From a virus: 64,000 nucleotides of DNA. Shown in pieces: positions 10,889-56,364 of the stretch (position 1 is its first letter; every line of letters starts with the position of its first letter). Under the pieces are notes generated by a model. That model did not search any database, was not told the DNA's origin, and was given only the letters and a program-made list of their open reading frames with translations. Both the position numbers and the translations under genes were made by a program. The stretch covers positions 43,116-107,115 of IMG/VR virus record IMGVR_UViG_3300014720_000019. The stretch is one strand, 5' to 3'.

Positions 10889-10921
10889 ACATATAAACAT
10901 ATACAACTAATAGGAGAATAG

Positions 10922-21194: not shown

Positions 21195-21207
21195 GAGATA
21201 AAATAAC

Positions 21208-21558: not shown

Positions 21559-21562
21559 CAAC

Positions 21563-21922
21563 ATGTTTGATATAAAAGGTACTACAGATATTGAGTTAGA
21601 TAATAGAGGAGATATAATACTTGAGACAACACCTAACTCATTATTTAGAAAGGCATTATTAACACCTAAAGGTTATATATCATATGAGTATGCTCCTGAC
21701 TCTACTATTGATAGTAACTATGGTAATAATGTTTATTACAAGATTAGAGAGAATATAAACACTGATGTAATAGCAACATTAAATGATGATGTTAGAGATG
21801 CTGCATCCTATGTTAATGTGCCAACAAAGAACATACAAGCATCAGTTGATTCTTTAGCAACTATAAACTATCTAATAACATATACAGACACATCTACACA
21901 GGAGATAACAATAAATGTCTAG
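21563..21922 (+). CDS. Baseplate wedge protein, gp25 / Mu gp46-like (119 aa)
   Basis: The length and pattern match the gp25/W family: FDIKGTTDIELDNRGDIIL, then an LLTPKG block, YGNNVYYKIRENIN, and a helix with DDVRDAASY. In T4 gp25 starts sheath polymerisation around the baseplate and forms the inner wedge core with gp6 and gp53. The neighbouring J-like gene, which overlaps it by 8 bases, is the usual partner. The LLTPKG motif corresponds to the more common LLTPRG. Confidence 0.75.
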   Translation: MFDIKGTTDIELDNRGDIILETTPNSLFRKALLTPKGYISYEYAPDSTIDSNYGNNVYYKIRENINTDVIATLNDDVRDAASYVNVPTKNIQASVDSLATINYLITYTDTSTQEITINV

Positions 21923-25023: not shown

Positions 25024-25097
25024 ATATTACTACAAGAAACAAACTATCCAATAACGCAAGAAACATCAATTCAAGACAACATATTAATAGAAAGTAA
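25020..25097 (+). CDS. Candidate 25-residue basic microprotein
   Basis: A 26-codon frame starts in the ATGA shared with the upstream stop (25020-25023) and ends in the TAATG shared with the downstream start (25095-25099). It fills the whole spacer with no base left over. The product begins MNITTRNKLSNNARNINSRQ and is very basic (seven Arg/Lys). There is no Shine-Dalgarno, so translation would depend on coupling. It may be a real small protein, a coupling leader that carries ribosomes to the next gene, or a remnant; the double overlap is the only evidence. Confidence 0.4.
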   Translation: MNITTRNKLSNNARNINSRQHINRK

Positions 25098-27218: not shown

Positions 27219-27735
27219 CTTTAATAGACTAGCAAAAGGTAGAAGTATATTTCTAAAAGGCATAGCCAACTATTTAAAGCAGTCATGTTTTATAACAATT
27301 GGTAGATATTCAGAGTGGACAGATGAGACACAACCACCACTAGTAACAGAACAAACAGCCACTGATGAAGTAATTATATACAAAAGACCTAGACTAATAA
27401 TGCTAGCAACTAAGACTAATTGTGGTGGTATATCATGTGGTAATAAGCTTATTAATGATGATAGATATTATTTAATAGATCCTACTAATCCTTCTATTGT
27501 TGATTCTAAGGCCACTCATATATACATAGAAGGAGATATTAGATATAAGGATTATCTTTGTGCATACTTTAGAACAACATCAATTGTAGTAGGCGCACAG
27601 GCTCCTAACAGTACAGCATTGTTCAAACCAGAACAGATGACTAATAAGGGCCAAGTATATATATCTACAAACCACACAAGAATAACAAGAGAATTAAATC
27701 AAAGACATCTTGTACAACAACTAATAGCATTATAA
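27205..27735 (+). CDS. Baseplate wedge-like protein, gp8-type domain suspected (176 aa)
   Basis: The N-terminus (LKQSCFITIGRYSEWTDETQPP) has the 'IGR--W-DE--PP' spacing found at the start of T4-type gp8-like wedge domains and their relatives, followed by a beta-rich domain (YLIDPTNPSIVDSKATHIYIEG). It is shorter than gp8 (334 residues). Ribosome site GGAGGAG lies 5 bases before the ATG, inside the oxidoreductase gene, one of the strongest in the operon. A baseplate role is inferred from the motif and neighbours. Confidence 0.55.
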   Translation: MQVFNFNRLAKGRSIFLKGIANYLKQSCFITIGRYSEWTDETQPPLVTEQTATDEVIIYKRPRLIMLATKTNCGGISCGNKLINDDRYYLIDPTNPSIVDSKATHIYIEGDIRYKDYLCAYFRTTSIVVGAQAPNSTALFKPEQMTNKGQVYISTNHTRITRELNQRHLVQQLIAL

Positions 27736-27752
27736 TAATTTATAAAAAAAAC

Positions 27753-30700: not shown

Positions 30701-31784
30701 ATTTGATGCTACTAATAAGCAAGTAACTAGTGGTTTAATACCTCCATACCTATCAGAAGACAGAGTAATATACACATTAGAACAAACGTTCATAGCAGAT
30801 GATTATTATTGGTTAAATGGCATAGTATTATACACCTCACAAACACCATCAATAGCTGCTGAATTGACCATTCTATTATTAGATGAAGATAGAAATGTAA
30901 TATCATATGGAGAAGCTACAATCTTTCTTAATAACAAAGTTAGATTAAACTTTCTAGTACCATGTTTAATAGAGAGAGATAAGTCTTATATACTGTGTAT
31001 TAAATCACCACAACAAGGCTTTAAGTTTGCCATTGCTAAGATTAATGAGCCAGACATAACAACTGGTAAATACTTTGGTAATCAATTATTTAGTAATGGT
31101 TGTTTATACTACTCACAAGATGGTATTAATAGTCTAGAATTAACAGACTATGATCTAACATATGAGTTAATTAGAGATGTGTTTACAGCTAATACAAAAC
31201 AAGTAAATCTAGGTACATACACTGTAAACTCTATTACAGCATTTACTATTAACACAAGAGATGTAGTACCACCTCTAACATCAATCATATATGAGTATGC
31301 AACAGAGAATGGCATATGGAATAAGTTTATACCTAACAGAGTAACTCAATTAGATGCTAAGTCTAATCAGATATCATTTAGAGCCACACTATTTACTAAT
31401 AGATTAGACATATCACCATTACTACTAATAAAGGGCTCCTCTATTAGTTTTTATTCTACTAATTCTAGCAGTACTATAGTATCTAACTACACATCCTTTG
31501 GTAATAACTATTCAACAGTAACTATTAAGGTTGGATATATTAGAGATAGCTCTTCATCACTAATTGTGTATCACAGTCAACAACAAACTAATGAGACATG
31601 GAAGATTGCAACACTAACAACAACGTCTCTAATTGATGAGAATATAAACTTATATGAGGCTATATATAGAGTTACTTATAACACAGCATCAACTGGCTCT
31701 AAGTATAGAATAGATCTAATATCAACTGACACTGCAAACCCATTAACAATTAAATACATCTATGTCAATCCTCAATTTATCTAA
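27753..31784 (+). CDS. Large DUF4815-type tail/baseplate protein (1343 aa)
   Basis: The N-terminus has the DUF4815 hallmarks: RNDFPSTIKDEW, VLFNNNRPLQSRELLELQ, DTIYKNGTPISG, and later SPGIGYVEGNRIVK (about residue 322). DUF4815 proteins are large structural proteins of T4-like and jumbo phages, thought to link fibres to the baseplate. A predicted coiled coil spans about residues 213-310 (Gln/Leu/Asn heptads). The C-terminal half has repeated jelly-roll-like segments (ADDYYWLNGIVLYTS) shared with the next gene. The 3' end overlaps that gene by 23 bases. Confidence 0.75.
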   Translation: MAPINTYRNDFPSTIKDEWIKVLFNNNRPLQSRELLELQDLVHTNSKKIFDTIYKNGTPISGLDITLQQTSVSGVRTFKCTEGVIYIEGQFITIPSSTFTVANTTAVVGVLITETIVTETNDPSLNDPEKGGELWGAAGAYRLRWTASIAVDASSMYPIANINNNKVIRILPTDPTKQLLANYIYDAEGNFIIRGFNTSSIATSTSTSNSNNLNNLLLQQDGLTSNINTIQGQIQALIDSNNRLNTSLSQYKQQIIVQYTTQLADLIVQTEALITSNNNSINTLKDKLNVLNTNNSLLQQDIDVEKKTQINIETVSISPGIGYVEGNRIVKTDNTLLTIQKNLPVSQIYNAVFTYNGTSAFTSYQFSILQLSTLISNRSLIRIQLANIVFNDVEHTIQADISLPNTITSIADIVLFIVNEFNQSITATTFTSATLSLNNNDLLSVIKQNYEVILTNSSTITFRFITLRNSATVPNINISLLKRDSNNTITGVGAGITITKTLTSNASSTLNAYKLGFTPVSAINRLSATLIATSKPIIRGAVPGTSDNLGQATVSRIISVGKDFTSYIEGVDYRLINQSQIDWSLPSTNEPAPGTTYFVTYLYSSILTNNVDYVLSNDSVKFINRTPAIGQSFSVDYSYYQSKSGVITLDRDGNIDYILSEAGINPPLPSVPSYLLPITTFKLSINQSTFQSIGLNKFTNKDLYELSTRLTQAVFALEDKPELISDNFLTYSSQDLDNSGYTAAICPNKQAITNGYTYKEASINTPEASRYINENYVSLPTSVTPVTYIKQDRITEYKDLIKTSYRPILRLSSYSLFFNNNKAKATPCNSFNSSNSKTNNRIDINNQSLFGLLSNSLEEALTTNNAFNSNSYDQESENYISSNVSLLPSLSIDLYLTDLDPASTNYKIYIDNKLVQTTLVLLNGTLAGTLLNTFKPNSSGKATVRVVIPNDITTGTHTIEARNTVYSIRSKFSVFNNLLNHIVFDATNKQVTSGLIPPYLSEDRVIYTLEQTFIADDYYWLNGIVLYTSQTPSIAAELTILLLDEDRNVISYGEATIFLNNKVRLNFLVPCLIERDKSYILCIKSPQQGFKFAIAKINEPDITTGKYFGNQLFSNGCLYYSQDGINSLELTDYDLTYELIRDVFTANTKQVNLGTYTVNSITAFTINTRDVVPPLTSIIYEYATENGIWNKFIPNRVTQLDAKSNQISFRATLFTNRLDISPLLLIKGSSISFYSTNSSSTIVSNYTSFGNNYSTVTIKVGYIRDSSSSLIVYHSQQQTNETWKIATLTTTSLIDENINLYEAIYRVTYNTASTGSKYRIDLISTDTANPLTIKYIYVNPQFI

Positions 31785-34119
31785 TTATAAAAGTAGTAGG
31801 TATAATCCCTACTACTTAAAGTTATTACCAGTAGCATCCAGAGAAAGACCACCACAAGCATTAGAGTTTGAAGATATACAAGATATTGCTATTAATAATA
31901 TAAGTACTTATACAAAGAATAACTTTAACACTTATCAAGTGTTATCAGGACTAAAAGTATTACTAATATCTAACAACTCTATAACTCTAAGTCCAGCTAG
32001 AATCCTATTAAATAATTATCCAGTCATAATAGAGACAGATCAAACAACAATTGATTCAACATCTTCTACATTTACTATATACTTAGCTATTAACATAACA
32101 AGACAAGACAATAAATACACCTATAACTATTCTTTCAATACTAATGATGGTTATCCACTTATCCAATGTAATAACGCCTCTTATAAATACCTTGTTAGAG
32201 ATAAGAGTAAAGATTATATAAGACAACAGTTATTTGAGATATATGGCAACTTCATTGAAAAGGGCCTTACATATAAAGACGGGTGTATAACACCTGGTAT
32301 TGCTTATATAAAGGGTAATAAGATAGTAGTTTCATATCACACTCCAATAACAACAAATCTATTAGAATATAAACTAATACTAAATGAGTTAGGACAAGTA
32401 CAGCCTGTATCATCTAACATTAGATTAGATCTTAACAATGTGATTGATCTTGGTACATACTCTAATAATAAGTGGTCCCCTAACAACTACAACAAGCTAA
32501 TAACTAATAAGGATATACAAGTACTACAACAAGGCTTATCTAATATAAGAGATTATCTATTAGAGACGGCCTTATTAAAGCCAATAGATACAACGTCTAA
32601 TCTAATAACTGATACTTTTAATAATACTAACAATGCTGATACTACTAACCCCTTATTTGATTGTGACATAGAACAAGGTAATCTAATACTTAATAAGTTT
32701 AGTAGGATTACAAAGGATATAACAATAAATAATAGAGGTACTAACACTAAGATTACTAATACTAACTCATATGTTATTGTTCAAGACTACACAGAAACAC
32801 CTCTTATATCACAACTAACATCAGACTCATTTATAACAACTAACACATCTTCTAGAGGTGTATTAAAGTTGGGGCCTTCTAAGTTAGACACATCAATATA
32901 TAAGAGAACATCTGATAAGACTATATTACTAACACAAACAGTAATATCAGCAGAAGCATATGGATTAACACCTAACTCATCAGACTTTAGATTAACAGTT
33001 GGTTCCAAACTAATATCAACTATTATTAGAACAGATGCTAATGGAAAGGCTTTATTTAACTTCTCATTACCACAAGGATGTACTGCTAATGACATAATTA
33101 CTGTGCAGAATAACACATCATCTGCTACATCATCATTGTTAGATAATACATACTCAGTTGATAATACTTATATTGGTCAAACGTTTACTATTGATAATGA
33201 CAATACAACTATTGTTGGAGGCTCTTTATATATTAGAAGAGTAGCAGCAGCTAACCCAACTATTAAAGTACTTATTACTAGATATAACAATCAAGTACAA
33301 GAGGTAATAGGTCAGACGATAATAGAGACTATAAACATTAAAACATCTGTTAATGGCACCCTATCAACCCCCTACACATTTGATCTACCAATAACCCTAT
33401 CAAAGGGGCAATATGCACTTGTAATAACATCATTAAACGGGCCAATAGATCTATTCATATCTAATAACAGTTCACTTGTTAATTCAAACTTAATAGCAGT
33501 AACAAATAACACAGCAACCCCTTATCTAAATAAAGACTTAAAGTTTGAGTTGTATAAACCAATATACACATCAACATCAGTACCAACAACAATAACAGTT
33601 AGAGATAACATTGATAAGTTTGACCACATATATTATCCAGGTAAGTTTAGAATTAATAGCATTGAATATACAAATGAAGCACCTATCAACCCCACCAACT
33701 CAATTGACATTGTATTAGACATTAATAAGTACTCTCTTGTATCACCAATACTAATTAGTACTAATAAGACAACATCTACATACATATCAAGAACCATTAG
33801 AACTAACTTTAGTTATAAGAGTGTTTACTTAGAAATGGATGCAATAATACCAGACTCAACAGAAGTAATAGTATACATATCATCCAATCAAGGATATACA
33901 TGGGACCGACTATCTAACCCCACATCATACCTAGTTGATGGCAATGATCAAACATTTAGATACATATATAACAACAATCTATCATCTCTTGTATCAATAA
34001 TTAATCAGGTAGGAGGTACAACACAAGCAACTAGAAACTATCTAACAATTAGAATTGATTTAGCTACACAATCAGACAATAAACCTATAGTAAAAGGCTA
34101 CAAAGCATATACATCATAA
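31762..34119 (+). CDS. Second DUF4815-like tail protein, paralogue of the upstream gene (785 aa)
   Basis: It shares the layout of the 1343-residue protein: an N-terminal segment with RPPQALEFEDIQDIAINNI, the diagnostic DGCITPGIAYIKGNKIVV (about residue 177), and a later module GGSLYIRRVAAANPTIKVLI that parallels WLNGIVLYTSQTPSIAAELTI. It lacks the long coiled coil. The pair probably arose by duplication and may form concentric or hetero-oligomeric fibre-attachment rings; that is inference. It overlaps the upstream gene by 23 bases and the downstream start through TAATG. Confidence 0.65.
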   Translation: MSILNLSNYKSSRYNPYYLKLLPVASRERPPQALEFEDIQDIAINNISTYTKNNFNTYQVLSGLKVLLISNNSITLSPARILLNNYPVIIETDQTTIDSTSSTFTIYLAINITRQDNKYTYNYSFNTNDGYPLIQCNNASYKYLVRDKSKDYIRQQLFEIYGNFIEKGLTYKDGCITPGIAYIKGNKIVVSYHTPITTNLLEYKLILNELGQVQPVSSNIRLDLNNVIDLGTYSNNKWSPNNYNKLITNKDIQVLQQGLSNIRDYLLETALLKPIDTTSNLITDTFNNTNNADTTNPLFDCDIEQGNLILNKFSRITKDITINNRGTNTKITNTNSYVIVQDYTETPLISQLTSDSFITTNTSSRGVLKLGPSKLDTSIYKRTSDKTILLTQTVISAEAYGLTPNSSDFRLTVGSKLISTIIRTDANGKALFNFSLPQGCTANDIITVQNNTSSATSSLLDNTYSVDNTYIGQTFTIDNDNTTIVGGSLYIRRVAAANPTIKVLITRYNNQVQEVIGQTIIETINIKTSVNGTLSTPYTFDLPITLSKGQYALVITSLNGPIDLFISNNSSLVNSNLIAVTNNTATPYLNKDLKFELYKPIYTSTSVPTTITVRDNIDKFDHIYYPGKFRINSIEYTNEAPINPTNSIDIVLDINKYSLVSPILISTNKTTSTYISRTIRTNFSYKSVYLEMDAIIPDSTEVIVYISSNQGYTWDRLSNPTSYLVDGNDQTFRYIYNNNLSSLVSIINQVGGTTQATRNYLTIRIDLATQSDNKPIVKGYKAYTS

Positions 34120-37121: not shown

Positions 37122-38864
37122 ATGGGCAGACCACAAGCTGAATACACTACAAAAGACTTCTTAAATGATTTATTAGCAGATCTAACGGAGGTCACAATAA
37201 ACACGCCACAAGGTAGCAATATAGACATTGTTACCTTTGCTAATTCAATACTATTTAATGATGGTGATACTAAGTTATGGCCAACACAAGAAGCCATATT
37301 AAAGGCCATATATAATGAGCCCCTTGATCAAGTACATAAAGACATACTTAATCTATGGAGAGAACAAGGAAAGACTAATTGGTTAGAGGGCAGACATTAT
37401 ACCAACTTAATACTAGAAGCTGGAAGAGGCGCTTCTAAGTCAAGTCTAAGTTCTATTATATGTTTATATGAGTTTTATACACTCATATCATTAAAAGATC
37501 CAGGTCTTCATTATGGTCTGATGTCCTTCTCCCCAATAGCCTTATTTGCAATAGCACAAACAGCAGACCAAGTATCAGAGACAAGTTTTAAAGCTATTAA
37601 GTCCTTTCTAGAGAACTCTAACTTCTTTAAATCTCTTATCAAGAAGAAGAAAATAATAGTACTCAGTGATGAGATTAGATGTCCTGATAAATTTGTATCA
37701 CTTTTTGCTAAGCATACCAACTCTAAAGCACTAGTTGGTTATAACTTAAAGATGTTATTTATTGATGAGATGGCCCGTTTTGAAACAACAGCAGATGGTA
37801 TTAATACTGGTTTAAATATATATCAGAACACTGGTAAGGGATTAAATAGATTCAAGGGAAAAGGTAAGAAGATAGTAGTATCATCTGCTTGGTCTTTTAC
37901 TGATCCAATGGTAACACTTAAACACCAAGCACAAGGAGACCCCTACTCATTAGTAATGGAGTTAACATGTTTTGATGTTAATCCAACCATTACTAGAAGT
38001 AATCCTGATGTGATATCTGAGTATGCCTCCGATCCAAAGAGAGCTAGACTAGAGTATGAGAACATAAGATCATCCAATGAAAGCGCCTTCTTTGAAGCCT
38101 CCTTATTAGATGAGTTATGTAAGATTCAATCATCAATTGATGTTACTGAATATAACTTAGACATTGAGGATAGAGGTTATAAAGGCATAAGAATTAATAG
38201 AATATCCAACATTAATAGTGCTTGTTTTATACATGTTGACACTAGTGTTAAGAAGGATGCAACAGCATTATCAATAGCAACTATCAATAATAATGGACAA
38301 ATAGAAATAATAGGTGTAGCTTGTTGGACACCAGGCATTGATGAGTATGGTAAGTTTAGAGAGGTGTCATATATAAACATTGAAGAGATATTGATATACA
38401 TATCACAATACATGAACATCATGTCTATATCATTTGATGGTTTTAACTCAAGTTCTCTAAATCAAAACTTATATAGTAGAGGCCTAAATACTAAGATAGT
38501 ATCATTCTCAAGAGAGAAACAATTATCCTATTACAACTTACTTAGACAGTTAATACAAAGAGGTGACGTGTTATTTCCTAGAGATAGTCCTTGGACGGGT
38601 ATTATAAAAACCGATCTACCCTCACTAGTTATTAAAGACAATGGACAGATTGTTCATCCATATGGGTCTAAGGACTTACCAGACGCACTAGCTGTTTCTG
38701 TCTTTGAAGCTTATACATATGGTTCTGCTTGTAATCTTATTAATAAGATAGAGATGAACGCACCTAAACTATTGAATATAAATACTCCTAGAAAGATAAC
38801 AGTCGGAGGCTCTATAAATAGATTACAACAACATAAGCTGAGAGCTAAATATAACTATTACTAA
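37122..38864 (+). CDS. terL: Terminase large subunit (580 aa)
   Basis: The packaging motor that translocates DNA into the prohead and cuts it. The ATPase has a variant Walker A LEAGRGASKSS (Lys106) and Walker B MLFIDEMAR (Asp214, Glu215), with a coupling-motif-like VVSSAW near 251-256. The RNase H-like nuclease domain follows with HVDTSVKKDATAL (Asp372, Asp378), SISFDGFNSS (Asp438) and the terminal KDLPDALAVSVFEA (Asp517, Asp520). All expected acids are present, so it should be active. The length fits T4-like and jumbo terminases. Unusually it lies inside the tail module, directly before the tape-measure locus; no small subunit is obvious beside it. Confidence 0.93.
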   Translation: MGRPQAEYTTKDFLNDLLADLTEVTINTPQGSNIDIVTFANSILFNDGDTKLWPTQEAILKAIYNEPLDQVHKDILNLWREQGKTNWLEGRHYTNLILEAGRGASKSSLSSIICLYEFYTLISLKDPGLHYGLMSFSPIALFAIAQTADQVSETSFKAIKSFLENSNFFKSLIKKKKIIVLSDEIRCPDKFVSLFAKHTNSKALVGYNLKMLFIDEMARFETTADGINTGLNIYQNTGKGLNRFKGKGKKIVVSSAWSFTDPMVTLKHQAQGDPYSLVMELTCFDVNPTITRSNPDVISEYASDPKRARLEYENIRSSNESAFFEASLLDELCKIQSSIDVTEYNLDIEDRGYKGIRINRISNINSACFIHVDTSVKKDATALSIATINNNGQIEIIGVACWTPGIDEYGKFREVSYINIEEILIYISQYMNIMSISFDGFNSSSLNQNLYSRGLNTKIVSFSREKQLSYYNLLRQLIQRGDVLFPRDSPWTGIIKTDLPSLVIKDNGQIVHPYGSKDLPDALAVSVFEAYTYGSACNLINKIEMNAPKLLNINTPRKITVGGSINRLQQHKLRAKYNYY

Positions 38865-38875: not shown

Positions 38876-39661
38876 ATGCTTATAAGAACACCAATTATAT
38901 TCACCTTAGAACCATTTATAGAAACACAACAAGATCCTATAATACCTCAACCAACTACAATAACCCCTGACAATGAGTTAGATTTAGTAACAGTGCCCAT
39001 CTTCTTAGCACCTAGATACTATTTAAAGATAAGAGCCCCTCATAATATTAGAAATGATGCGTTTTATATACCATCTGATTACACATACTATATTCCTTGG
39101 GAAGGTATATACAAAGATCAAATAAGACTAGCATTACCACCAACAATTGGGTGGGGAGAAGGCTCTTGTTACACCGTTGAATATTGGGAATGGACACCAG
39201 TTGTAAGACCCTTGTTATATAAGAAGAGACCTACTAAACACCGTCATATAAAGACTGAACACTGGTTAATACCCCATCCATCTAATAGATATTTAGTCAA
39301 TTATCAATACATAGATAGATATAGATTTAACACGTTAAAGTTAACACTGACATCAACTGGCTCTCCTATATCATTAGCTAATAATAATGACGTATTAGTT
39401 GTGACATCTATTAATAAAACAAGTAACTATTCAATATCCCCTGTTATAGCTACTAATACAAGTCTAATACAAAGGGCTGTTAATTATGACAAGACAGCAG
39501 ACTTACTACTAACAACTGATATACCTACAGATCAAGTATTTACTATTAACTACATTAAACCAGTAGACATAAGAAACATTCTATTTAAGAACAGTTTATT
39601 CCCACAAAACATATATATTAACAACAGCACCTTCTTACAAAATCAACCAGTAACCTTTTAA
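38876..39661 (+). CDS. Hypothetical virion protein (261 aa)
   Basis: Not recognised. It is rich in Pro, Tyr and Trp in its first half (DYTYYIPWEGIYKDQIRLAL, TVEYWEWTPVVRPLLYKKRP) and in Thr/Asn/Ile in its second (DVLVVTSINKTSNYSISPVI). It looks like a beta-rich structural protein. It lies between the terminase and the tape-measure gene; a tail-chaperone or tail-tip role is possible but unsupported. Confidence 0.58.
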   Translation: MLIRTPIIFTLEPFIETQQDPIIPQPTTITPDNELDLVTVPIFLAPRYYLKIRAPHNIRNDAFYIPSDYTYYIPWEGIYKDQIRLALPPTIGWGEGSCYTVEYWEWTPVVRPLLYKKRPTKHRHIKTEHWLIPHPSNRYLVNYQYIDRYRFNTLKLTLTSTGSPISLANNNDVLVVTSINKTSNYSISPVIATNTSLIQRAVNYDKTADLLLTTDIPTDQVFTINYIKPVDIRNILFKNSLFPQNIYINNSTFLQNQPVTF

Positions 39662-39670: not shown

Positions 39671-42600
39671 ATGAATCTACTTGGTAAAATTGCAACAGGA
39701 TTAGGATTATATAGTGCCACCTCACTAGGATGGGGTGTACTTAATAATGACTTTAATCCATATCAACAAGGTGACTGGAATTGGCAATACAAAGGGGCCT
39801 CATACAGTGATAGAGTTGGTAATTTTACAATGTTTAGTGATAACAAAAGTAGATATAATGACTATTTAAAAGGCTATAACAAGACAGTTGGATATGATTT
39901 TAACTTAGTTGGCATTGATCCACAGCAAGTTAAAAGACAACAAATAATAGAGGACAACTTATATAAACAAGGTACTCTATCTTCTAATGAGAATCTAGCA
40001 CTTATTGGTAATCCAACTGGAGCTAATACAACATCTAGTAATAACTTAATACTAGAGAATAAAGTAGGTGGTAGATCATTATTTGTTACAAGTTTTAATG
40101 AAGAGAAAAAGAGGCCTAATTGGGTAGCTTATAACATTAGAAAGGAGAATCTTGGATCAACAGAAAGAGCAAACATATTTACGTACGACACTAATGTTGA
40201 TAGTAGATATCAGATGCTTGATAGTGGAGTAAAGGGCTTTCAAAGAGGCCACAACTTTCCATCATCTCTAGCAACTGCTAATGAGGATATAAACAAAGCA
40301 ACATTTGTTATCACTAATATGACCGCACAAGCAGGAGAGCTAAACACTGGTGCATGGAAGTACTTGGAACACTATTTAAGAGATCAAGTAAAAGATAATA
40401 ATCAACAAGTAGTTGTATTAAGTGGTAATTATGGCAGTGGTGGTATAGGAACACAAGGCTATAGAAAATATGTTGATGGAGTTGAAGTTCCAAGTATTAT
40501 GTGGAAGGTTGCAATCTTCTTAGATAGTAATGGCAAAATATCATCTAATAGTAAAAGCATTGTTACCGCATTTCCTAACCAACAAAATGTTAATAGTGAT
40601 TGGAGAAGATATCAATTAAAGAATGGTAATGATTTAAAGACTCTACTAAACACAGAAAGATTATTACCCGCCCTAGACAAAGAAACAGAAGAGGCCGTCT
40701 TAAAAAATGCTTTTAGTTTGCCAGATGATAAGAGTAAACTATTAAGCTTAGATAATCTAGTAAATAACAACTTTATGAATGAAGCTGTTATATCTACTAG
40801 AGCAAGAGAGAAAGGCATTCATAATCCTTTACTAGGTCCCTTATTTGATCCTTCAAAGTCAATGAAGGGTGTTGTCATATCAAACAAGAGAACTCACTCT
40901 GAATCATTTGAACTAGCTAGATACAATGCATCTATGATGGGTACTGGCCGTTTCACATCAGCAATAGAAGTGACTGATATGAGTACAGTGCAAGGCCTAA
41001 TGTATCTAGCAAAAGGAGATCAAATGACATGGGGGGATAAGAAGATAGCAGAGGTGTTTGATTATGCTGCTAATTCACCCTCTTTAGCATCTAGGATTAA
41101 TGAGTACTTCTTTATACCTAATGGCATGGGTAGAGTGTATAAAGAAGAGAAGGGCTTTATACCCTCATTATTTGGTGCTGTTGGTGCTCTCATTGATCAA
41201 TCATATATAACTAATAACCCAGTATTAAAGTCATATAAGAGTGACGCTGACAGTTACTACACAACAAAGAATAGTATATTTCAAGACTTACTAGAAAACT
41301 CATCAGCAGCCATACTAGCAACAACCTCATCAATTGGTGTGTACTTAGCAGTTGGTGAGCCTTTAAAGGCAATGCTGTCTAAGAGCATATTAGACACACA
41401 AAAGGCCCTAATAGATGCGTCTGACAGTCACTCCATTAAGAAGAATAGTAGTACTAGTAGTAATCCACTAGTTAGACAATTGACAGAAGCAAAACATAGA
41501 ATTGCTAATGTATTAATTGGAGGAGATAAAGACACAAATGTTGGCTTTAAGTTGCAACAGATTGAAAGAGCAATGGGGCCAAATGCAAACACGCCATACT
41601 ATGATGTAAAGAATGGCACCTTATCAGCCTACTATCTTGACAACTATGCTAGATATAGAGGAGCATCATTCTTTGAATCAACCGCACAACACTTCTTATT
41701 AGACATAGTTAATCCATACACTGTTGGCAAGGCTGAATATATAAAACTTAGAAGCGCTATTAATGATTATGTTAATGAGGTGTATAGACCTGCTGATATT
41801 AAGATCGTTGATAGAGCTAAGCCTATATCAGGTGTAGCTAGAACAATTGAATGGGCATCAGAGACAATTGATATTGACTTTAATGGTGATAAGAGAGCTA
41901 TTAAGATTGGCACTGCAATAGAAGCAATCAGAAATAAGACCGCCTTAGTTGATCCTACCAATAAAGGTGTAACTAGAGCTATGGATTCTGTTCTAATTGA
42001 TGAGATTAATGACGTTGTTAATAAGAAGTATGCAGTAGATATTACTAATGTGTCACTAGAAAGAAGCATGATACTTGCTAAGAAGACACAAGCAATATTA
42101 AACCTAATACCTATGCCCTGGGCTTGGGGCATATTTGCTGGCAGGCAAGATAAAGTTACAGCCCCTATGATTGGTAACTTGTTAGACATTGAAGGCTTTA
42201 CAAGACATATTAATGCGTCTATTAGTAATCAAGGATTCTGGGGTGCTGCTAATGAGTTTATGTACTTCAACATTGATGGCAATAACAGTAATAACGCTGC
42301 TTACAGAATAACTAATCACATAGCAACAAGTACTAGAGCAATACTAGCATTCAATGATAGAGGGGGCCAATCAAAGGCAGACTTAGAAGCAATTGAACAA
42401 GTTGCAAGTACATACTCTAATGCTGAGAAGGTAGTAGTAGAGAGACTTGATAAGGCTGAGAAAGCTAGATCATATAAGTCCTCAACAACACTAGGTAGAG
42501 AGATATTTAACACTGACGCTTTAAATCAAGATGAAGTGTTAGAATTGTTAGACCTTGAAGCTAACTATCAAAGTGAATGGAAGAAAGCATCTGGTAGTAG

Positions 42601-45600
42601 AACCAACATAAAACAAATAACACTTGATGACACCTTATACAAGTATGCTAATAAGGGCAATGCTACTAATAGTTTAGGCTTCTCATTACACACTCTAGAC
42701 AAGGGCGGTGATTATACTGGCATGAAGATTGCCAGCACTAAACTAGCAGGTGCTAAGTGGATAGTTGGAGCCTTATTCATACCACACCTATTAGGTGTTG
42801 AGTTCTTACAAAGAAGTGGTGCCTCACTACTAACAACTGCACTACAACAATTAAACTTTAACAAGACAACAACTAACACAACAATAGAACTACAATCTAC
42901 TAACTTTGTATCTGGTAGAGAGTTTGCTAAGTACTTTGGTGCTAACAATAATATAGCTGATGTTATTGGTAATGTAGAGACATTAGTAGGATTAGCAGGT
43001 ATTACAACATGGGCATGGAAGAACAGTTCATCGTTCATGCCTGAAATACATGCAAAGTTATATCAAGGTGATAATGTATTTAACTCAATAACAGAGATAG
43101 CAACAGAGTTAGATAGTAGTACTGGTAACTATAAGTTCAACGCTGTTAATGGTAGAGCAGCGATTGAAGGTGTATTAAATAATAAAGCTGGCAATATTAA
43201 CTCCTTTAGAGCCAAGCTTGCTAGTGATAAAGAAGTAGTGTTTAGTGTTGTTAGAGATGGTTCTAAGATAGTAGGACTACAAACATTAAACGCCCAAATT
43301 AAGAAGAACATGACTTCATTTGGCATAACATTAGGTCTATCATTAACAGCAATGCAGACGGCCAGATATGTTATTAGTTCTGCTATTAATGGTGAAAGGC
43401 AGTTGACAGGATCAGCCTTACTATCTACCTATGCATTAGCAGTACCAGCAGTAATAATAGGTACAACATCAATAGCTGACAATATAGCTCACACTGTTAA
43501 CTTATTAAGCGGTGGTAAGACTGGATGGAATGATTATAAGCTTACATCTGCTGTTACACGGGGCCTTTTATGGACCACACAACAAACTGCTAATATATTT
43601 GCTAAGAGTCCATTATTAGCAACAACAATAGCAGCAACAGGTCTATTAACAGCCTATATAAGTGGTGCTGCCAAATACTTAACTCCCTTTCAAGGTGACA
43701 TCAACGGACCAAGGTTAGATGAGACAAACACTACTGCTATTACTAAATTAGGCAAGTATGTAGAGCATGTTAATAGAAAGATTAATAATGCTTATAACAA
43801 TGCTGAAGCAGATAAAGGTGACATAGCAGTTAGTGACACCGTATCACCACTAGAAGTTAATGGTGCTTTATTTGCCATAGCACTTAGTAAGATAATGAAT
43901 CCAATACTATCATCACAGAAGGGTAGTACTGCATATGTTGTAGCAATACAATCACCAACACCAGTCTTTCAATACTACAGTGTTTATAAGACTATAAAGG
44001 ATAGTCAAGGCAACACATATTCAACGCTTAATCTAGGCTTACAAGGTCCACCAGCATTTGGCTTTGCACCTATCAACTTAAGTCTACCAATAGCCTTTGC
44101 AATGAATGCAAGAAGCAATGATGGAATACTAATTAGAACGGGCTACCTGGGTACAGGTTTAATGCTGAATGAAAATAACAAAGATAGCATGTCCATGCAA
44201 GACTATTTAAATTTATATGGTAATGTTGCTCTATGGAGTGGACTTGCTGTAAAAGGTGTTAGCACGTTATACAGTGTTAGAACAAAGGGTATTAATAAAC
44301 AAATAACAAAGAGTGGAACACAGGCAGCATTACCACCCCTTGTACAATCAATGAAGGGAGGTAGAGATGCCTTCTTATCAACTATTGGCACCTTACCTTT
44401 AAAGATAGCAGCACAATCATTTACCATTGCAACTGGTGATGTGAGAATGATGTCACTAAGATTAAGAGGTGGCTACTTATCAATGTTGCCAATTGGTATT
44501 AACGCACTAGTAATGGGTGCGTTTAGCAATCACTTATATGACGTGTTTAAACAAACAACACAACCCTATGTTGATAGAGAGAAGGCCAAAGATGATAAAG
44601 ATCCAATAAGAGCTGTTCTTATTGGTGGTATGGCTATTACATATGGTATTAGAGATTATTATAAAAACACATTTCAAAGGGCTAAAGAGCTAACAAGATT
44701 AGAAGGCATACTATTAAATGGCACTGACAAGATTGCATATGATATGTCTTCAATTAACATATTCTCTAGTGCTGGTCAAAACAAATATGTTAAAGGAGCT
44801 ATTAAAGTATTAAACATTGTATCTGGTGCTGCTAGTCCAGTTATATCTAAGATAGCTCCATCAATATCAGCAGTAAAACAACTATATCAATCTGCAACCA
44901 CTAATGTTAGTAGAGTGTTTAGCAGTACAAGTAGAAAAGCTAGATATGGCAAATCAGCAATTATGGGGGGCCTCTTCTACCACTTCATAACAGATCCAAA
45001 AGCAGGACTAATAAACCCAGAAGTAGCATTTGGTGATCTTAAGACACAAGAAGAAGATAAATATACATGGTCACCTAGAAGACTAACAACTGTTGCTGGT
45101 GGTGCCTTATTATTTGCAGCAACTGCACACTTATCAGGTGTAACACCAGCAACACTAAACCCCTTTCAACCACTAAGATCGGAGGAGATATTTGATAGTT
45201 ATAGAGCAAGGTTAGAGACAGTTGTTGAGTTGAGAGGAAAGAAGGGGCCACTTAACAATGTTAGATCTTGGTACAACGAGTATAGACTAACAGCACAAAG
45301 TAGAGAGGTACAGACAATATTTGATGCCTTACAAAATGGCGATCCACTGATTGAAGAGTTAAAGAAGATAGAGACTGATCCAGCCACTGGAAAGCCTGTA
45401 ACAAGAACAATTGCCTATCTAACAAGTAATCCTCTATCAAATATAAAGAATCAAGCAGCCAATAATGCTAAAGATGTGATAGACAATTTAAGCCAATTAG
45501 ATCCAACAAACACTGGACACTTAGATCTAGTTAGTGCTGCTAAAGCTGATCCTAAAGCAGTATTAGATAAGTTGTATGTAGACGATGGTATTGGTAAACC

Positions 45601-48600
45601 TAGAGTAAACATAGAAAAACACACAACAACCTTAGAGGCTATTGACTTTGCACATCCAAATGTAAGTACCAACATTAGAGTTAGTAGAATATCTAAGTTT
45701 GCAGTTGTAGGTGTTGGCTTAGGCGCTGGTTTAATGCTTAGCAATTATCTTGCTCAATCATTTGGATATAAGGACATACAAGATGCTTTTATAGGCGCTG
45801 GCAGCAATGATAAATATAGTCTAACTGAACAGATAAAGACTGGATTGATAGACTTACTAAAAATACAGACTAAACAGGATAGAGAGCACTCATATGATTT
45901 AGCAAAGGGATTAGTTGGACCCAACTTTAGAACTAGTAAGGGTGAGTTTCTATTAGCTCCAGAGAACACAGTAAAGGGATCAATTAATAAAGCAGTAAAG
46001 AATCTAAGCAACCTAGTAATAAGTAACGCTCCTAACACCTTTGTAGGCTTAGGAGCTGTTGGTATAACTGTTAGACCTGATGACAATGATGTTAGAGTTA
46101 GAGACTACTTCCAACTACAATCAGCATCACAAGACTTTAGTAGTGCCATGTATTCAATGTCAGCAGTGTTTGGTTTACAGGAGCTTGCTAAGAAGGGCTT
46201 CCTTGCTAACACTATAATAGCCGCCACAAGAGGGGTTGATGATAAAGAATTAAATCAAGCACAACTTAGAAGTATTGCTACTAATATAATAACTGCTGTT
46301 TATAGTCAACCAATAAGAAAGCCAAAGGATAGGATTAAGTTTACCACTCCTAACAAGTTGATGTTAGAAGGTATGCAAGGTAACAGACAACTATCAATGT
46401 CTGTTACTAATAGATTAAAGAACCTACAAGCAATGTCATATGGCACCACAGAACAGTTAGCATTATACACATTGACTAACAACATGTTTGTAGCTGATCC
46501 AGCAATACAAAATCAATTCTATAAAGCTCTTAGACAATTATCCTTACATGATGATCAAACAGGATTAGGAGAGCTCAATCAAAACACATTAATAGGGGGC
46601 AGACTAAATGTTAGCAGTGTAAAGATAAAGGGTAATAATGACAACCCATTCACACCATTTAAACTAACAACAGTTGAATCTAACAATGAAGATGCCTTCT
46701 TTGAAATGCAAGGCATAGCAGTACAACTAACAACTAATCAATATCTAGAACAAAAGGATCTAGGTGAGATGTTGAAGGACAACATTGCTAGATTCTATGC
46801 ATCGTCATCACTACAAGGACTAGTTAATGCTTTACCTCCTGGTCTTGGATTAGTAGCACAAATACTAGCAGCAGTTGGTGGTATAGGTGTTGTTGCTAGC
46901 ATGTTATACACTGCTGGTTATAGAGCATCAATGAATCAAGCATCTGTTGTAAATACAAGATTGTATGAACAACTAAACAAGTTTTATGACAAGGATAATT
47001 GGTTCACAGACAATAAAGTGGAAGGAATAGAAACTCCTAACACTACTGGAACACACTATCTAACAGTAAAGAGAGCAGGTGTAGTATTTGCAGTAGAAGA
47101 AGGACTTACCTCAACTCAAATACAAAAGTATCAAGATGATATTGACAAGTTACAAAGCAAACTAGCATTAAGCTTTGATCAATCTTATACTCAATTTAGT
47201 GATAGATATGGCGCTGAATATACCAATAACAAACAGAAGTTAGAAGCCTTTTATAATGACATTATTGATAGTAATAAAGTAACTGGTAGCACAACAACAG
47301 TACTAGCACAAAGAGATCAACTAATAGCTAGAAACTATGCTAAAGAGTTTCAACCAGTAATGGGTGTGGCCAATCAAACAGTAGTAACATATAACACCTC
47401 TAACAATCAAAGAATAACAGAGCATCTAATTGATCAGTTCACACAAAAGCAAGTATTAGATGCTTATTTAGAAGGCCAGCATTTACAGCACTTAGAGATT
47501 GCCAAAAATTCAAAGGGTGCTATAAAACCTATGAGTATAAGAGACTTTACTGATAAGTATTATAAAAACATAACCTATGATGACCTATTAAATTCAAAAA
47601 TAAAGGGCTTTGAAAGTAATGGCTACAACATCTTTGGTAAGGATAGATTTGCAACTAGAATGTCAATTAATCTTATAACTGAAGTGTATGCCGCCAAGTA
47701 TGATTATATTATTGATACATTCTTTAACACTGTTGATGAGAGCATTGATGATGTATTTAAAATAAGAGATGACAACATTTATTCAAAGTTTACTAGTAAC
47801 AGCATAAACGAGTTAGATCTAAACACACATACTTCTGTTAAGGCTCACGCTGCCAATAGAAGATTAGAGATGAAGATCCAACTTAGAGAGAATATAAAGA
47901 CTAGAATGGATAGTATATTTGCTCCTAAGAAGACTGGTAAGTGGGCATGGTTAGATAGTCTATTAACCTTTGTTGGAGGCAACTCAACAGTAAGAGATAA
48001 CATACAAGGTATGACCTTACAAGCTGGTGAGGCTGCAATGGATACAGTAAAGGGTATAAGAAGTGATTTAGGGGGCATGTTTAATAGAACTGGACCAGTT
48101 CCAACCTATCTAACAACAGAGGCACAAGAAGCAGTAAAACAGGAGATTATTAAAAGAACTGGACAAGGGGTTAAAGGTTCAATGCCCGTATCTAGCATAC
48201 CAGCACCCCTACAAAGTCAAGGAGCCACCTTATCCTTTGAGAATACACTATTAAGCTTTGGTAGTGGATTAATGGCCGCCTTTCAATTCATGCAATTTGC
48301 ATCAATGAATCTACTAACAATGAGAGCCGCAGCAAGTATATCCTCATCAAAGACTGGTGAAAGAGAGAAGGAGATGGCTAGAGAGGAGCTTGCTAAGGAG
48401 GGCTTTGAAAATATATTTGCTGCTATGTTTTGGGGCACAATACTAAGTGGTGAGTTGATAAAAGGATATGGTTTACCCCTAGCAGGAGGACTAGCTGCTG
48501 GTTATATTGGCTATGAGTTCTTATTTAATAAGAGAGGTATTGGCATGACAATAACTGGTGGTGCAGTTGGTGCTGGTTTATTTGCTACTGCTGTTGGTAT

Positions 48601-50212
48601 GCAGTGGTTTTCTAGAAATACTGGACCCAACAAATGGGCCTTATCACTAGGATTAGCTGGTCTAGTAATGCTTAGCAGAGGCGTATCTGATAGCATGGGA
48701 TCTGCAATAGCAGCCGTATCACCACAAGCAGGAAAGTATATAGCAGATCAATTAGAAGCTTTAAACAGTGCTGGTAGATATGGCATGAGAAAGCTACAAG
48801 ATCAGAGTCAATATATTAACTTAGTAGCTGGTGGTACATTTGCATTTGCTGGAGCATATAGCATGTTTAAAGGAGGCCCAACAGCATTAAATCTTGGACT
48901 AACAGCAGTTGGTGCTTTACTAGCAAGTGTTGGCTTAGTGCATGGTATAAACACAATAACAGAGAACAAAGATACTAGATGGGAAGGTGCAAGCAGAGCA
49001 GGCTTATCAGTTGTTGCTAACATATTAACAAGTAAGTACATACCTAAAGGTGTTGACATACTAAGCAAGACAATAGGAGCTAAGATAAGTCAAGAGATAG
49101 GAGAAAAGATAGCAATTGAATCACTAACAACCTCAGTAAGAAGTGCAGGAGGATCTGCACTTAGAAAGCTTGGTGGTGATGCATTAGTAAAGAATGTAGC
49201 AGGTAAGTTAGCAGCTACAAAAGCAGTTGGAAGCTTTGTTGGTAAAGCTGTATCTGGATTTGTTGGAGGACCTTGGGGAGCCACAATAATGATAGGTTGG
49301 AGCATATTTGAATTGTTATCAATATTAATAGCACCAGAAGCTGTGGATCAGACAACATCATGGCTAACTAATTTACCAACACAAGTGTTAGGTGGATATG
49401 GACAGCTTCTATTAACACCATCTAATCAGATATATCAAGATAAAAGATATAGAGACTTAGACACAAGAAATCCTATGTACTTTGGTACAGTAACAGACGC
49501 ATTAAAACAAGAATGGGCGGGTCAAGTAGACACGCTAACTGACTTCACAGGAAGAACCACACTAGCTAGAAACGTAGGAGCATTAGACGCACCAATGGGA
49601 GGCTATCAAGTAACTAGTCAAGGTTATGGTCCTAGATCATTAGATGCGGTTGAAGAGTTAGCTTTGATAATAAGAAGTAAGGGTTATAATCAACTAGTAA
49701 CTGGTAGACAGTTCTGGAACAGTAGAATGGATACCGCATTAAATGTGGCTCTTGTTAATCAATATATGAATATAACTAATCAAATACAAATGCAAGCTTG
49801 GGAGAATGATGTTAGAAAGACAGTAGAAAGAGAGAAGGCTAGAATAACAAAGGCACCAATATTCTCTGCAAAAGACTATAAACAGATGGCTAAAGACACA
49901 CAACCACTAGCAGAGATATTAAATAGTTTATTTGTTAAACAAAGTGCTGAATTTGCAAGTAACAACTCATTAGTAGTTAATGTAAAAGCACAAGCTGCTC
50001 CTGATAATAATCCAAGTCAAAAGATGTCCTTTGGCACTATATCTCCAACCGCTTTAAAGGCAGAGAAGGTAATACAAGATAATGGCACTCCTAAGATATC
50101 ATTTAGCAAAACAGTTGTTCCTAATATTGATCAAGTAAGAAAAGATCATAGAGATTATATTGGTCCTGAAAATACAGTTGCACAACATATTATTGCTCCA
50201 CTTAATGTATAA
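39671..50212 (+). CDS. Giant tape-measure-type protein with N-terminal DNA/RNA non-specific endonuclease domain (3513 aa)
   Basis: At 10.5 kb the largest gene here. Residues about 130-330 (about 40060-40660) form a Serratia-nuclease-type domain: KGFQRGHNFPSSLA (Arg192-Gly-His194, a DRGH variant), TNMTAQ (216-220), and LNTGAWKYLE with Asn225 and Glu233. The His-to-Asn and Asn-to-Glu spacings (31 and 8) match the catalytic layout of that family. The rest has about twenty hydrophobic, Gly/Ala-rich segments (for example LPLAGGLAAGYIGYEFLF) separated by polar helices and coiled coils, the texture of tape-measure proteins that set tail length and enter the host envelope. At about 0.15 nm per residue the upper bound is a tail near 0.5 micrometre. 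A large ejected internal protein is the alternative. Confidence 0.82.
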   Translation: MNLLGKIATGLGLYSATSLGWGVLNNDFNPYQQGDWNWQYKGASYSDRVGNFTMFSDNKSRYNDYLKGYNKTVGYDFNLVGIDPQQVKRQQIIEDNLYKQGTLSSNENLALIGNPTGANTTSSNNLILENKVGGRSLFVTSFNEEKKRPNWVAYNIRKENLGSTERANIFTYDTNVDSRYQMLDSGVKGFQRGHNFPSSLATANEDINKATFVITNMTAQAGELNTGAWKYLEHYLRDQVKDNNQQVVVLSGNYGSGGIGTQGYRKYVDGVEVPSIMWKVAIFLDSNGKISSNSKSIVTAFPNQQNVNSDWRRYQLKNGNDLKTLLNTERLLPALDKETEEAVLKNAFSLPDDKSKLLSLDNLVNNNFMNEAVISTRAREKGIHNPLLGPLFDPSKSMKGVVISNKRTHSESFELARYNASMMGTGRFTSAIEVTDMSTVQGLMYLAKGDQMTWGDKKIAEVFDYAANSPSLASRINEYFFIPNGMGRVYKEEKGFIPSLFGAVGALIDQSYITNNPVLKSYKSDADSYYTTKNSIFQDLLENSSAAILATTSSIGVYLAVGEPLKAMLSKSILDTQKALIDASDSHSIKKNSSTSSNPLVRQLTEAKHRIANVLIGGDKDTNVGFKLQQIERAMGPNANTPYYDVKNGTLSAYYLDNYARYRGASFFESTAQHFLLDIVNPYTVGKAEYIKLRSAINDYVNEVYRPADIKIVDRAKPISGVARTIEWASETIDIDFNGDKRAIKIGTAIEAIRNKTALVDPTNKGVTRAMDSVLIDEINDVVNKKYAVDITNVSLERSMILAKKTQAILNLIPMPWAWGIFAGRQDKVTAPMIGNLLDIEGFTRHINASISNQGFWGAANEFMYFNIDGNNSNNAAYRITNHIATSTRAILAFNDRGGQSKADLEAIEQVASTYSNAEKVVVERLDKAEKARSYKSSTTLGREIFNTDALNQDEVLELLDLEANYQSEWKKASGSRTNIKQITLDDTLYKYANKGNATNSLGFSLHTLDKGGDYTGMKIASTKLAGAKWIVGALFIPHLLGVEFLQRSGASLLTTALQQLNFNKTTTNTTIELQSTNFVSGREFAKYFGANNNIADVIGNVETLVGLAGITTWAWKNSSSFMPEIHAKLYQGDNVFNSITEIATELDSSTGNYKFNAVNGRAAIEGVLNNKAGNINSFRAKLASDKEVVFSVVRDGSKIVGLQTLNAQIKKNMTSFGITLGLSLTAMQTARYVISSAINGERQLTGSALLSTYALAVPAVIIGTTSIADNIAHTVNLLSGGKTGWNDYKLTSAVTRGLLWTTQQTANIFAKSPLLATTIAATGLLTAYISGAAKYLTPFQGDINGPRLDETNTTAITKLGKYVEHVNRKINNAYNNAEADKGDIAVSDTVSPLEVNGALFAIALSKIMNPILSSQKGSTAYVVAIQSPTPVFQYYSVYKTIKDSQGNTYSTLNLGLQGPPAFGFAPINLSLPIAFAMNARSNDGILIRTGYLGTGLMLNENNKDSMSMQDYLNLYGNVALWSGLAVKGVSTLYSVRTKGINKQITKSGTQAALPPLVQSMKGGRDAFLSTIGTLPLKIAAQSFTIATGDVRMMSLRLRGGYLSMLPIGINALVMGAFSNHLYDVFKQTTQPYVDREKAKDDKDPIRAVLIGGMAITYGIRDYYKNTFQRAKELTRLEGILLNGTDKIAYDMSSINIFSSAGQNKYVKGAIKVLNIVSGAASPVISKIAPSISAVKQLYQSATTNVSRVFSSTSRKARYGKSAIMGGLFYHFITDPKAGLINPEVAFGDLKTQEEDKYTWSPRRLTTVAGGALLFAATAHLSGVTPATLNPFQPLRSEEIFDSYRARLETVVELRGKKGPLNNVRSWYNEYRLTAQSREVQTIFDALQNGDPLIEELKKIETDPATGKPVTRTIAYLTSNPLSNIKNQAANNAKDVIDNLSQLDPTNTGHLDLVSAAKADPKAVLDKLYVDDGIGKPRVNIEKHTTTLEAIDFAHPNVSTNIRVSRISKFAVVGVGLGAGLMLSNYLAQSFGYKDIQDAFIGAGSNDKYSLTEQIKTGLIDLLKIQTKQDREHSYDLAKGLVGPNFRTSKGEFLLAPENTVKGSINKAVKNLSNLVISNAPNTFVGLGAVGITVRPDDNDVRVRDYFQLQSASQDFSSAMYSMSAVFGLQELAKKGFLANTIIAATRGVDDKELNQAQLRSIATNIITAVYSQPIRKPKDRIKFTTPNKLMLEGMQGNRQLSMSVTNRLKNLQAMSYGTTEQLALYTLTNNMFVADPAIQNQFYKALRQLSLHDDQTGLGELNQNTLIGGRLNVSSVKIKGNNDNPFTPFKLTTVESNNEDAFFEMQGIAVQLTTNQYLEQKDLGEMLKDNIARFYASSSLQGLVNALPPGLGLVAQILAAVGGIGVVASMLYTAGYRASMNQASVVNTRLYEQLNKFYDKDNWFTDNKVEGIETPNTTGTHYLTVKRAGVVFAVEEGLTSTQIQKYQDDIDKLQSKLALSFDQSYTQFSDRYGAEYTNNKQKLEAFYNDIIDSNKVTGSTTTVLAQRDQLIARNYAKEFQPVMGVANQTVVTYNTSNNQRITEHLIDQFTQKQVLDAYLEGQHLQHLEIAKNSKGAIKPMSIRDFTDKYYKNITYDDLLNSKIKGFESNGYNIFGKDRFATRMSINLITEVYAAKYDYIIDTFFNTVDESIDDVFKIRDDNIYSKFTSNSINELDLNTHTSVKAHAANRRLEMKIQLRENIKTRMDSIFAPKKTGKWAWLDSLLTFVGGNSTVRDNIQGMTLQAGEAAMDTVKGIRSDLGGMFNRTGPVPTYLTTEAQEAVKQEIIKRTGQGVKGSMPVSSIPAPLQSQGATLSFENTLLSFGSGLMAAFQFMQFASMNLLTMRAAASISSSKTGEREKEMAREELAKEGFENIFAAMFWGTILSGELIKGYGLPLAGGLAAGYIGYEFLFNKRGIGMTITGGAVGAGLFATAVGMQWFSRNTGPNKWALSLGLAGLVMLSRGVSDSMGSAIAAVSPQAGKYIADQLEALNSAGRYGMRKLQDQSQYINLVAGGTFAFAGAYSMFKGGPTALNLGLTAVGALLASVGLVHGINTITENKDTRWEGASRAGLSVVANILTSKYIPKGVDILSKTIGAKISQEIGEKIAIESLTTSVRSAGGSALRKLGGDALVKNVAGKLAATKAVGSFVGKAVSGFVGGPWGATIMIGWSIFELLSILIAPEAVDQTTSWLTNLPTQVLGGYGQLLLTPSNQIYQDKRYRDLDTRNPMYFGTVTDALKQEWAGQVDTLTDFTGRTTLARNVGALDAPMGGYQVTSQGYGPRSLDAVEELALIIRSKGYNQLVTGRQFWNSRMDTALNVALVNQYMNITNQIQMQAWENDVRKTVEREKARITKAPIFSAKDYKQMAKDTQPLAEILNSLFVKQSAEFASNNSLVVNVKAQAAPDNNPSQKMSFGTISPTALKAEKVIQDNGTPKISFSKTVVPNIDQVRKDHRDYIGPENTVAQHIIAPLNV

Positions 50213-55179: not shown

Positions 55180-56364
55180 TTACAACCAAATTATATATTC
55201 TAAATAACATTGTTCTTCTTTATAAATAATGATTTCACTGTTTAATAAACCATTACCCGCCTCAACAAAAGTACTATCATAGCCCCTCTTATTAAGCTCA
55301 TTAAAAGACAGATTAAAGTCATTACCTGTATACCAACCTTTATATATGTATGGGGTGCCAACATATACCTTGTATATTAAAAGCACCTTATCATTATCAT
55401 AGCCAGTATATCCTAATGACTTACTAGTAACTTCAGAGAAGTATATTCCATCTCCGTATACCTTACCAGAGAAGTGATAATTACCACTAGGTCTTATCTT
55501 CATCCCTTGTTCAATGATAGGTATAACAGATGAGCATCTAGTACCATGTATTAAGTATCTATGACCGCTACTAATGTCTTTATTATTAGCTTCTAAGTAG
55601 TTATAATACTTATTCTTGTGTCTTTCAATGTCAACTTTAAATAAGGCTCTAATCTTATTACCTAGCTGCTTAGTAATATAAGTAATGTTGCTAGGATAGT
55701 CTTTTACAATATCAATTGTTATATTTAGACTAGAAGCAATACTATTAATAACTGGCTTCTCATTACAATCTTCTACATTATTACTAATATCTTCTATGAC
55801 TTGAGAGGCCAATGCATCTAACTTATCTTGTTCTTGTTCTACTAGTTTATTCAAAGATATGTTAGGTAGTAAGTAGTCCTGTACCTTTCTCATATATCTA
55901 GGAATAACAGTATACAACTTTAACAATAAATCATTAACTTGTTGTATATCATAATTATCACCAACTTGGGCCAAATCATTAATATATAGTTGAGCTTGTT
56001 CTAATTGTCTTCTAGTAACTTGATTAGCTTTAACACTGTAAGTAGTAGATACAAGACCATCTCTATACTCCATCATCTTCTTTAAGAAGACATCATATAG
56101 TTCTTGTGTATATATAATGTTATTAGTAGGCCCGTCTTCAGTAACAGTAACAGCAACAAACTCAGTAACATCAACATATCCCTTCTTTATCTTACTTTTA
56201 ATTAAAGATGACCACTGATGTAAAGGTTTAGTTATCTCAATACAACTCTGATCAACTCTGCCATATTTAACTTGTATATGATCACTTGTCTCTTGCATCT
56301 CATAATACTTATTATGATTATCTTCTGTGGTCATAACAAGTCTACAGAATCTATACTGTGACAT
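55180..56364 (-). CDS. Poly(ADP-ribose) polymerase-like enzyme: WGR plus PARP catalytic domain (394 aa)
   Basis: Predicted to move ADP-ribose from NAD+ to a target. The N-terminal WGR domain (about residues 5-70) has KYYEMQE, VKYGRVDQS (Gly35-Arg36) and KSKIKKGYVDVTE. A helical regulatory-type region spans about 110-200. The catalytic domain carries the complete H-Y-E triad: LIHGTR (His273), YGDGIYFSE (Tyr308) and LLNSEIIIY (Glu377), so polymerase rather than only mono-transfer activity is possible. Zinc fingers and BRCT of eukaryotic PARP1 are absent. WGR domains sense DNA ends, so activity may be linked to breaks. It lies upstream of the barstar island in the same orientation. Confidence 0.92.
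   Translation of the reverse strand: MSQYRFCRLVMTTEDNHNKYYEMQETSDHIQVKYGRVDQSCIEITKPLHQWSSLIKSKIKKGYVDVTEFVAVTVTEDGPTNNIIYTQELYDVFLKKMMEYRDGLVSTTYSVKANQVTRRQLEQAQLYINDLAQVGDNYDIQQVNDLLLKLYTVIPRYMRKVQDYLLPNISLNKLVEQEQDKLDALASQVIEDISNNVEDCNEKPVINSIASSLNITIDIVKDYPSNITYITKQLGNKIRALFKVDIERHKNKYYNYLEANNKDISSGHRYLIHGTRCSSVIPIIEQGMKIRPSGNYHFSGKVYGDGIYFSEVTSKSLGYTGYDNDKVLLIYKVYVGTPYIYKGWYTGNDFNLSFNELNKRGYDSTFVEAGNGLLNSEIIIYKEEQCYLEYIIWL

Follow-up and report, generated by a model that had tools for sequence, protein, structure and literature searches.

A NucA-type nuclease domain in a putative exchangeable N-terminal slot of a giant, cysteine-free protein from a relative of Microcystis phage LMM01

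The window analysed here is a stretch of 64,000 nucleotides that forms the right-hand portion of a 107-kb IMG/VR virus contig (IMGVR_UViG_3300014720_000019, positions 43,116 to 107,115). A gene for a protein of 3513 residues, referred to below as the giant, follows the terminase gene in this window. The features of the locus, all on the plus strand, are as follows.

37122..38864, +, terminase large subunit, 580 aa, upstream of the giant in an order kept in relatives
38876..39661, +, 261-aa gene in the interval between terminase and giant; a similar-sized gene lies at the same position in relatives
39671..50212, +, giant protein gene, 3513 aa, ATG start, zero Cys; homologue of LMM01 gp120 (phrog_29513)
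40064..40621, +, Endonuclease_NS domain (NucA/Serratia/EndoG type), residues 132-317, by Pfam, PDB profile and Foldseek of a low-confidence model
40181..40183, +, Thr171, in place of the Arg of relatives and NucA (the active-site arginine position), by alignment
40244..40252, +, RGH, residues 192-194, preceded by Gln191; His194 is at the general base position
40343..40345, +, Asn225, metal-ligand position, by motif and NucA alignment
40367..40369, +, Glu233, active-site Glu position, by motif and NucA alignment
40802..41059, +, junction ("adaptor"), residues 378-463, start of the homology to SNase- and PLD-bearing relatives
41057..42235, +, conserved core, residues 463-855, common to all lineages
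45926..46486, +, second conserved block, residues 2086-2272, common to LMM01, WqHQDG and other lineages

Relatives of both the terminase and the giant are found in Microcystis phage LMM01, the MaMV relatives and Microcoleus phage My-WqHQDG (WqHQDG below), and by sequence the contig is a member of this LMM01/WqHQDG lineage, which has phages infecting bloom-forming cyanobacteria. Further relatives were retrieved from IMG/VR via the terminase. The order of terminase, small gene or genes, and giant is identical in LMM01, WqHQDG and the IMG/VR relatives, and the sheath, M23 and baseplate J genes lie about 17-33 kb upstream of the giant gene. An Rfam search gave no match, promoter and terminator scans gave signals at about the level of shuffled sequence, P0001 had no match when viral contigs were scanned directly, and the conserved core had no match in bacterial genomes.

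A preliminary description of this DNA, made from the letters alone, had proposed a non-specific nuclease domain near the N-terminus of this reading frame and had named RGH with His194, Asn225 and Glu233, at spacings of 31 and 8 residues, as its catalytic positions. The frame (39671-50212, plus strand, 3513 residues from an ATG), the residues and the spacings are all exact, and the identity of the Endonuclease_NS domain is, from profile comparison, beyond doubt. Residues 132-317 matched Pfam PF01223 (Endonuclease_NS) at 114.7 bits against a cut-off of 23, with an E-value of 6.5e-33. A profile built from three sequences, those of the window domain and of two relatives, was compared with the PDB; Anabaena NucA (2o3b, 1zm8) was the best match at E 3.5e-38, followed by EXOG, EndoG and Serratia nuclease. 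As seen in the alignment, His194, Asn216, Asn225 and Glu233 are in register with NucA; Asn225 opens the motif NTGAW, and Glu233 lies within KYLEHY. The Foldseek comparison that the preliminary description had called for also placed NucA first, followed by EXOG, EndoG and Serratia nuclease among the top matches; the model behind it, built from the three-sequence alignment, was poor, with a mean pLDDT of 35 and blocks of 60-73 only within residues 230-350.

Two substitutions had been overlooked by that description. In the window copy, Gln191 stands where the DRGH signature has Asp (giving QRGH), and Thr171 stands at the place of an active-site Arg, so that the full signature with its arginine is absent here. 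The active-site comparison was made with the two closest relatives having full N-termini. Among relatives, G001 and L004 carry DRGH with the Arg, and L008 carries DMGH with the Arg. At the DRGH position, the aligned NucA chain has ARGH. We take this structure to be a deliberately weakened D121A mutant, which underlines the weight of the Asp position. With both of these supporting positions altered, the window copy may be an attenuated nuclease, and possibly weak or dead. An alternative reading takes the N-terminal domain for a decaying relic, descended from an active ancestor and deprived of catalysis in this phage, since Gln191 and Thr171 replace an Asp and an Arg that G001 and L008 both retain. 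We nevertheless consider such decay unlikely: His194, Asn216, Asn225 and Glu233 are retained, the frame is open over 3513 codons, and the domain still scores well above the family cut-off. Moreover, human EXOG has Ser instead of the DRGH Asp and is active all the same.

The same NucA-type fusion, for which the preliminary description had suggested a search in related phages, was found in four related IMG/VR contigs with E-values of 5e-37 to 6e-27, three of them near-identical contigs from different metagenomes and one a further contig. This recurrence excludes an assembly accident. As a separate observation, a NucA-like nuclease stretch is also present in five "Bacteriophage sp." records of 5.6-6.5 kb from human faeces (MT837612, MT838283, MT838136, MT838156 and MT837939).

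From about residue 378 onward, the body of the giant is homologous in several blocks to LMM01 gp120, to its WqHQDG counterpart and to giants of 2400-5500 aa from IMG/VR. The region in front of this body is different. By Pfam, a staphylococcal nuclease (SNase) occupies the N-terminus in four lineages, L025 (3.4e-15), L042 (2.5e-13), L043 (4.5e-7) and L070 (1.2e-10), with L042 having a counterpart, L040, from another metagenome; the catalytic motifs of these cassettes appear intact in all when judged by eye. A phospholipase-D-type (PLD) domain occupies the N-terminus of the WqHQDG protein (2.8e-11) and of L052 (1.9e-22). The L052 protein (5484 aa) has an additional GDSL hydrolase beside the PLD (1.4e-23), together with weak, sub-cut-off matches to metallopeptidase (M91 effector) and eCIS-core models. 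It was also observed that the L052 reading frame from 2726 carries HExxH-like stretches besides its N-terminal GDSL hydrolase and PLD, and is without any Cys. Endonuclease_NS, SNase and PLD are thus three unrelated folds on one homologous body.

The cleanest case is the comparison of L042 with WqHQDG, which are 71% identical along 2963 residues; their first 22 residues also agree, at 82% identity. Between these shared ends, L042 has SNase, whereas WqHQDG has a longer segment with PLD at its end. In the tree of the conserved core, the L042/WqHQDG pair has support of 100/100, as does the clade of the window; SNase-bearing L070 pairs with LMM01 at 98/97, but in that pair long branches meet. Only these three groupings of the tree are drawn upon here. 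No nuclease was recognised at the LMM01 N-terminus by Pfam, by profile-profile comparison or by a custom profile scored against shuffles; a PLD had been considered there from HxK-like motifs seen by eye and was rejected when the same three approaches came back empty. Another candidate, L074, has a PLD N-terminus on the giant behind its terminase. Its body has no detectable homology to the giants above, and it is therefore a positional analogue only. This gene (L074:11954-21725, with L072, L073 and L075) lies on a GC-rich contig of 205 kb.

The presence of unrelated enzymes before one shared body points to an N-terminus that serves as a slot for an exchangeable effector, and such a slot is a larger finding than the nuclease alone. 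Since non-specific cleavage of nucleic acid is shared by all three types, the simplest common description of the slot's occupants is an enzyme attacking nucleic acid, while PLD and GDSL domains could also target lipids. Polymorphic toxins combine a conserved trunk with swapped toxic domains, among which nucleases are common. A conserved trunk with exchanged toxic domains is likewise found here; the giant differs in that its exchanged part is N-terminal instead of C-terminal and that its carrier is of phage virion type. As to an adjacent immunity gene, no obvious partner gene was seen, and one search for the NucA inhibitor NuiA, run without a positive control, gave no match. None of the open-licence papers found reports a giant phage protein whose N-terminus is exchanged among unrelated nucleases.

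The giant contains no cysteine in its 3513 residues, where 31 would be expected at the rate of the other reading frames of the phage and 24 at the rate of the late-module frames. Its homologues, N-terminal enzymes included, have 0 or 1 Cys each. For calibration, the ejected proteins gp50-52 of phage N4 (3500, 644 and 150 aa) and gp15 and gp16 of T7 are without Cys, whereas T7 gp14 is ejected yet has one; Cys does occur in the majority of the remaining virion proteins of N4 and T7. The N4 capsid protein and the sheath of the window phage are Cys-free although not ejected. A chain without Cys, as found here, is a suggestive mark of an ejection protein and not a strict definition. In N4-like polymerases, the lack of Cys has been explained as easing passage through the tail (PMC3915230; PMC4837373). 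Since the trait is mostly shared by the ejected proteins of N4 and T7, ejection of the giant with the DNA is plausible and, by this analogy, likely. From the late-module location of the gene we infer that the protein is present in the virion. Delivery of the nuclease with the DNA had been well guessed in the preliminary description; it gains indirect support from the zero Cys count and from the swap to unrelated nucleases in sister phages, and may be retained at that strength.

The same description had called the body a membrane-active tape measure. The protein has 5 strongly hydrophobic segments, and its helix-period fraction of 0.39 equals the 0.39 of lambda gpH but is also close to the 0.41 of a second giant. 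Against the label, the giant matched no tape-measure family, the only matches being phrog_29513 (function unknown) and the nuclease family, and the gene follows the terminase instead of lying after tail-assembly chaperones and shortly upstream of the baseplate genes. The second giant, a Cys-free protein of 3923 aa, is encoded to the left of the window on the minus strand (L014:851-12622; contig 20851-32622), adjoins the portal gene and is a homologue of LMM01 gp080 (3562 aa). Both it and gp080 show HKD-like motifs and a PLDc_2 match at the N-terminus, weak and below cut-off (0.0013 and 0.0003). The missing family match, the position beside the terminase and the second giant together leave the identity as a tape measure unproven. 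By the usual rule, a tail of 230-260 nm corresponds to roughly 1700 residues of extended helix. This is the tail length of the relative MaMV-DH01 (PMC9927357), which the LMM01 body, at about 2400 residues, would span with room to spare. Another candidate for the true tape measure, an 848-aa reading frame at 10922, was rejected for its low helical periodicity and 6 Cys. Each of the two giants could be a tape measure, and each could be an ejection protein; the giant of the window is filed here as probably an ejected virion protein.

Starting from the observed domain, active-site residues, exchange and lack of cysteine, a virion location, an ejection route, a site of action and a target can be proposed together. 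We favour, with a probability of roughly 0.6, a giant virion protein that is threaded through the tail and carries an N-terminal socket for exchangeable enzymes, here of NucA type, which cuts host or competing nucleic acid. The sugar-non-specific nuclease in the socket may derive from a cyanobacterium. At infection the giant, whether tape measure or ejection protein, would leave through the tail; its Cys-free chain would traverse the tube unfolded, and the hydrophobic segments would aid in crossing the membrane. Past the envelope, the N-terminal enzyme would refold in the periplasm or cytoplasm and cut host or competing nucleic acid. Other tape measures exit with the tip end, the C-terminus, first. 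By analogy, the N-terminus of the giant would exit last, right before the DNA. How the phage's own DNA would be spared, a question raised by the preliminary description, could have several answers: the DNA may still be enclosed in the channel when the enzyme refolds, the enzyme may work in another compartment such as the periplasm, or the DNA may be modified.

The enzyme might instead act outside or at the host surface, where it would clear extracellular DNA or envelope material during entry and leave the chromosome alone. Nucleases of the NucA, SNase and PLD types are as a rule secreted, and the possible lipid targets of the PLD and GDSL domains would suit such a role. In addition, the nuclease of Tme, a tape-measure-related protein discussed below, is tied to extracellular DNA release (PMC11126660). 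However, a domain within the tail tube or capsid is unexposed before ejection, and the surface enzymes of phages are usually on fibres or the baseplate; on balance a surface role appears improbable. Less probable still is a part in particle assembly and not as a weapon, by trimming DNA at packaging or head completion or by holding the leading end at the connector: the gene does lie directly behind the terminase region in all relatives, and a virion-associated, packaging-essential head-completion nuclease of the T4 gp4 type is known (PMC7824862), but a conserved step is unlikely to tolerate three unrelated non-specific nuclease folds and a GDSL hydrolase, and LMM01 does without a recognisable nuclease at that N-terminus.

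The reading of an ejected giant with an enzyme socket can be compared with several known systems. The nearest tested precedent is Tme of a Streptomyces davawensis contractile injection system, a tape-measure-related effector with an active and toxic nuclease (PMC11126660). Like the giant, it is large and has hydrophobic segments and a nuclease of the same superfamily (EndA type; DRGH, H-N-N). Unlike in the giant, the nuclease is C-terminal, the carrier is bacterial, and no exchange of unrelated nucleases is described. NucA of Anabaena sp. PCC 7120 is the closest solved relative of the domain itself; it stands alone, whereas the window copy is fused to a body of 3200 residues and departs from it at two active-site positions, which are Gln and Thr. 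The BtI1 hub protein of Bacillus thuringiensis has an N-terminal staphylococcal nuclease (PMC2147016) and resembles the giant in bearing an exchangeable N-terminal domain, nuclease included, on a phage tail protein. It is a baseplate hub of the T4 gp27 type, however, and its relative has peptidoglycan-degrading domains and no other nucleases. N4 gp50 resembles the giant in several traits: it has about 3500 aa, no Cys and an enzymatic activity delivered from the virion through the tail, but it is an RNA polymerase located in a podovirus capsid. Polyvalent proteins are very large multidomain proteins with nucleases and other effectors, proposed to be co-injected with DNA (Iyer et al. 2017; PMC5512222). 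In contrast to the exchange found in the giants, their ParB-type DNases reportedly do not give way to other DNases, and the words PLD, phospholipase, SNase and tape do not occur in the text of that paper (PMC5512222).

A wider proposal, on which we are evenly divided, is that tailed phages, mainly cyanobacterial ones, have a dedicated warhead slot on a giant, Cys-free, ejected protein, which would be the phage counterpart of polymorphic toxins and would be delivered at the first moment of infection. The slot would take unrelated nucleases and occasionally hydrolases or peptidases. If the enzymes are injected, host or rival nucleic acid would come under attack ahead of all phage gene expression. 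Swapping one nuclease type for another would then suggest an arms race over the injection step, the mirror of SNIPE, a host nuclease that associates with tape measures and cuts phage DNA at the site of injection (PMC13190303). The finding would tie phage tails to effector-loaded contractile injection systems, and a direct test is feasible in cultured Microcystis and Microcoleus phages.

Other genes of the window and its relatives showed features of their own. The terminases of L004, L007 and L008, close relatives of the window (about 10000-12200; 8675-11437 in L008) have an apparent intein at the ATP-binding motif (GRGC...HNSSKS), which is short in L004 and L007, longer in L008 and absent from the window terminase. 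Downstream of the giant, on the minus strand of the window, 55180-56364 encodes the catalytic domain of a poly(ADP-ribose) polymerase (E 3.5e-17) together with a weak WGR match.
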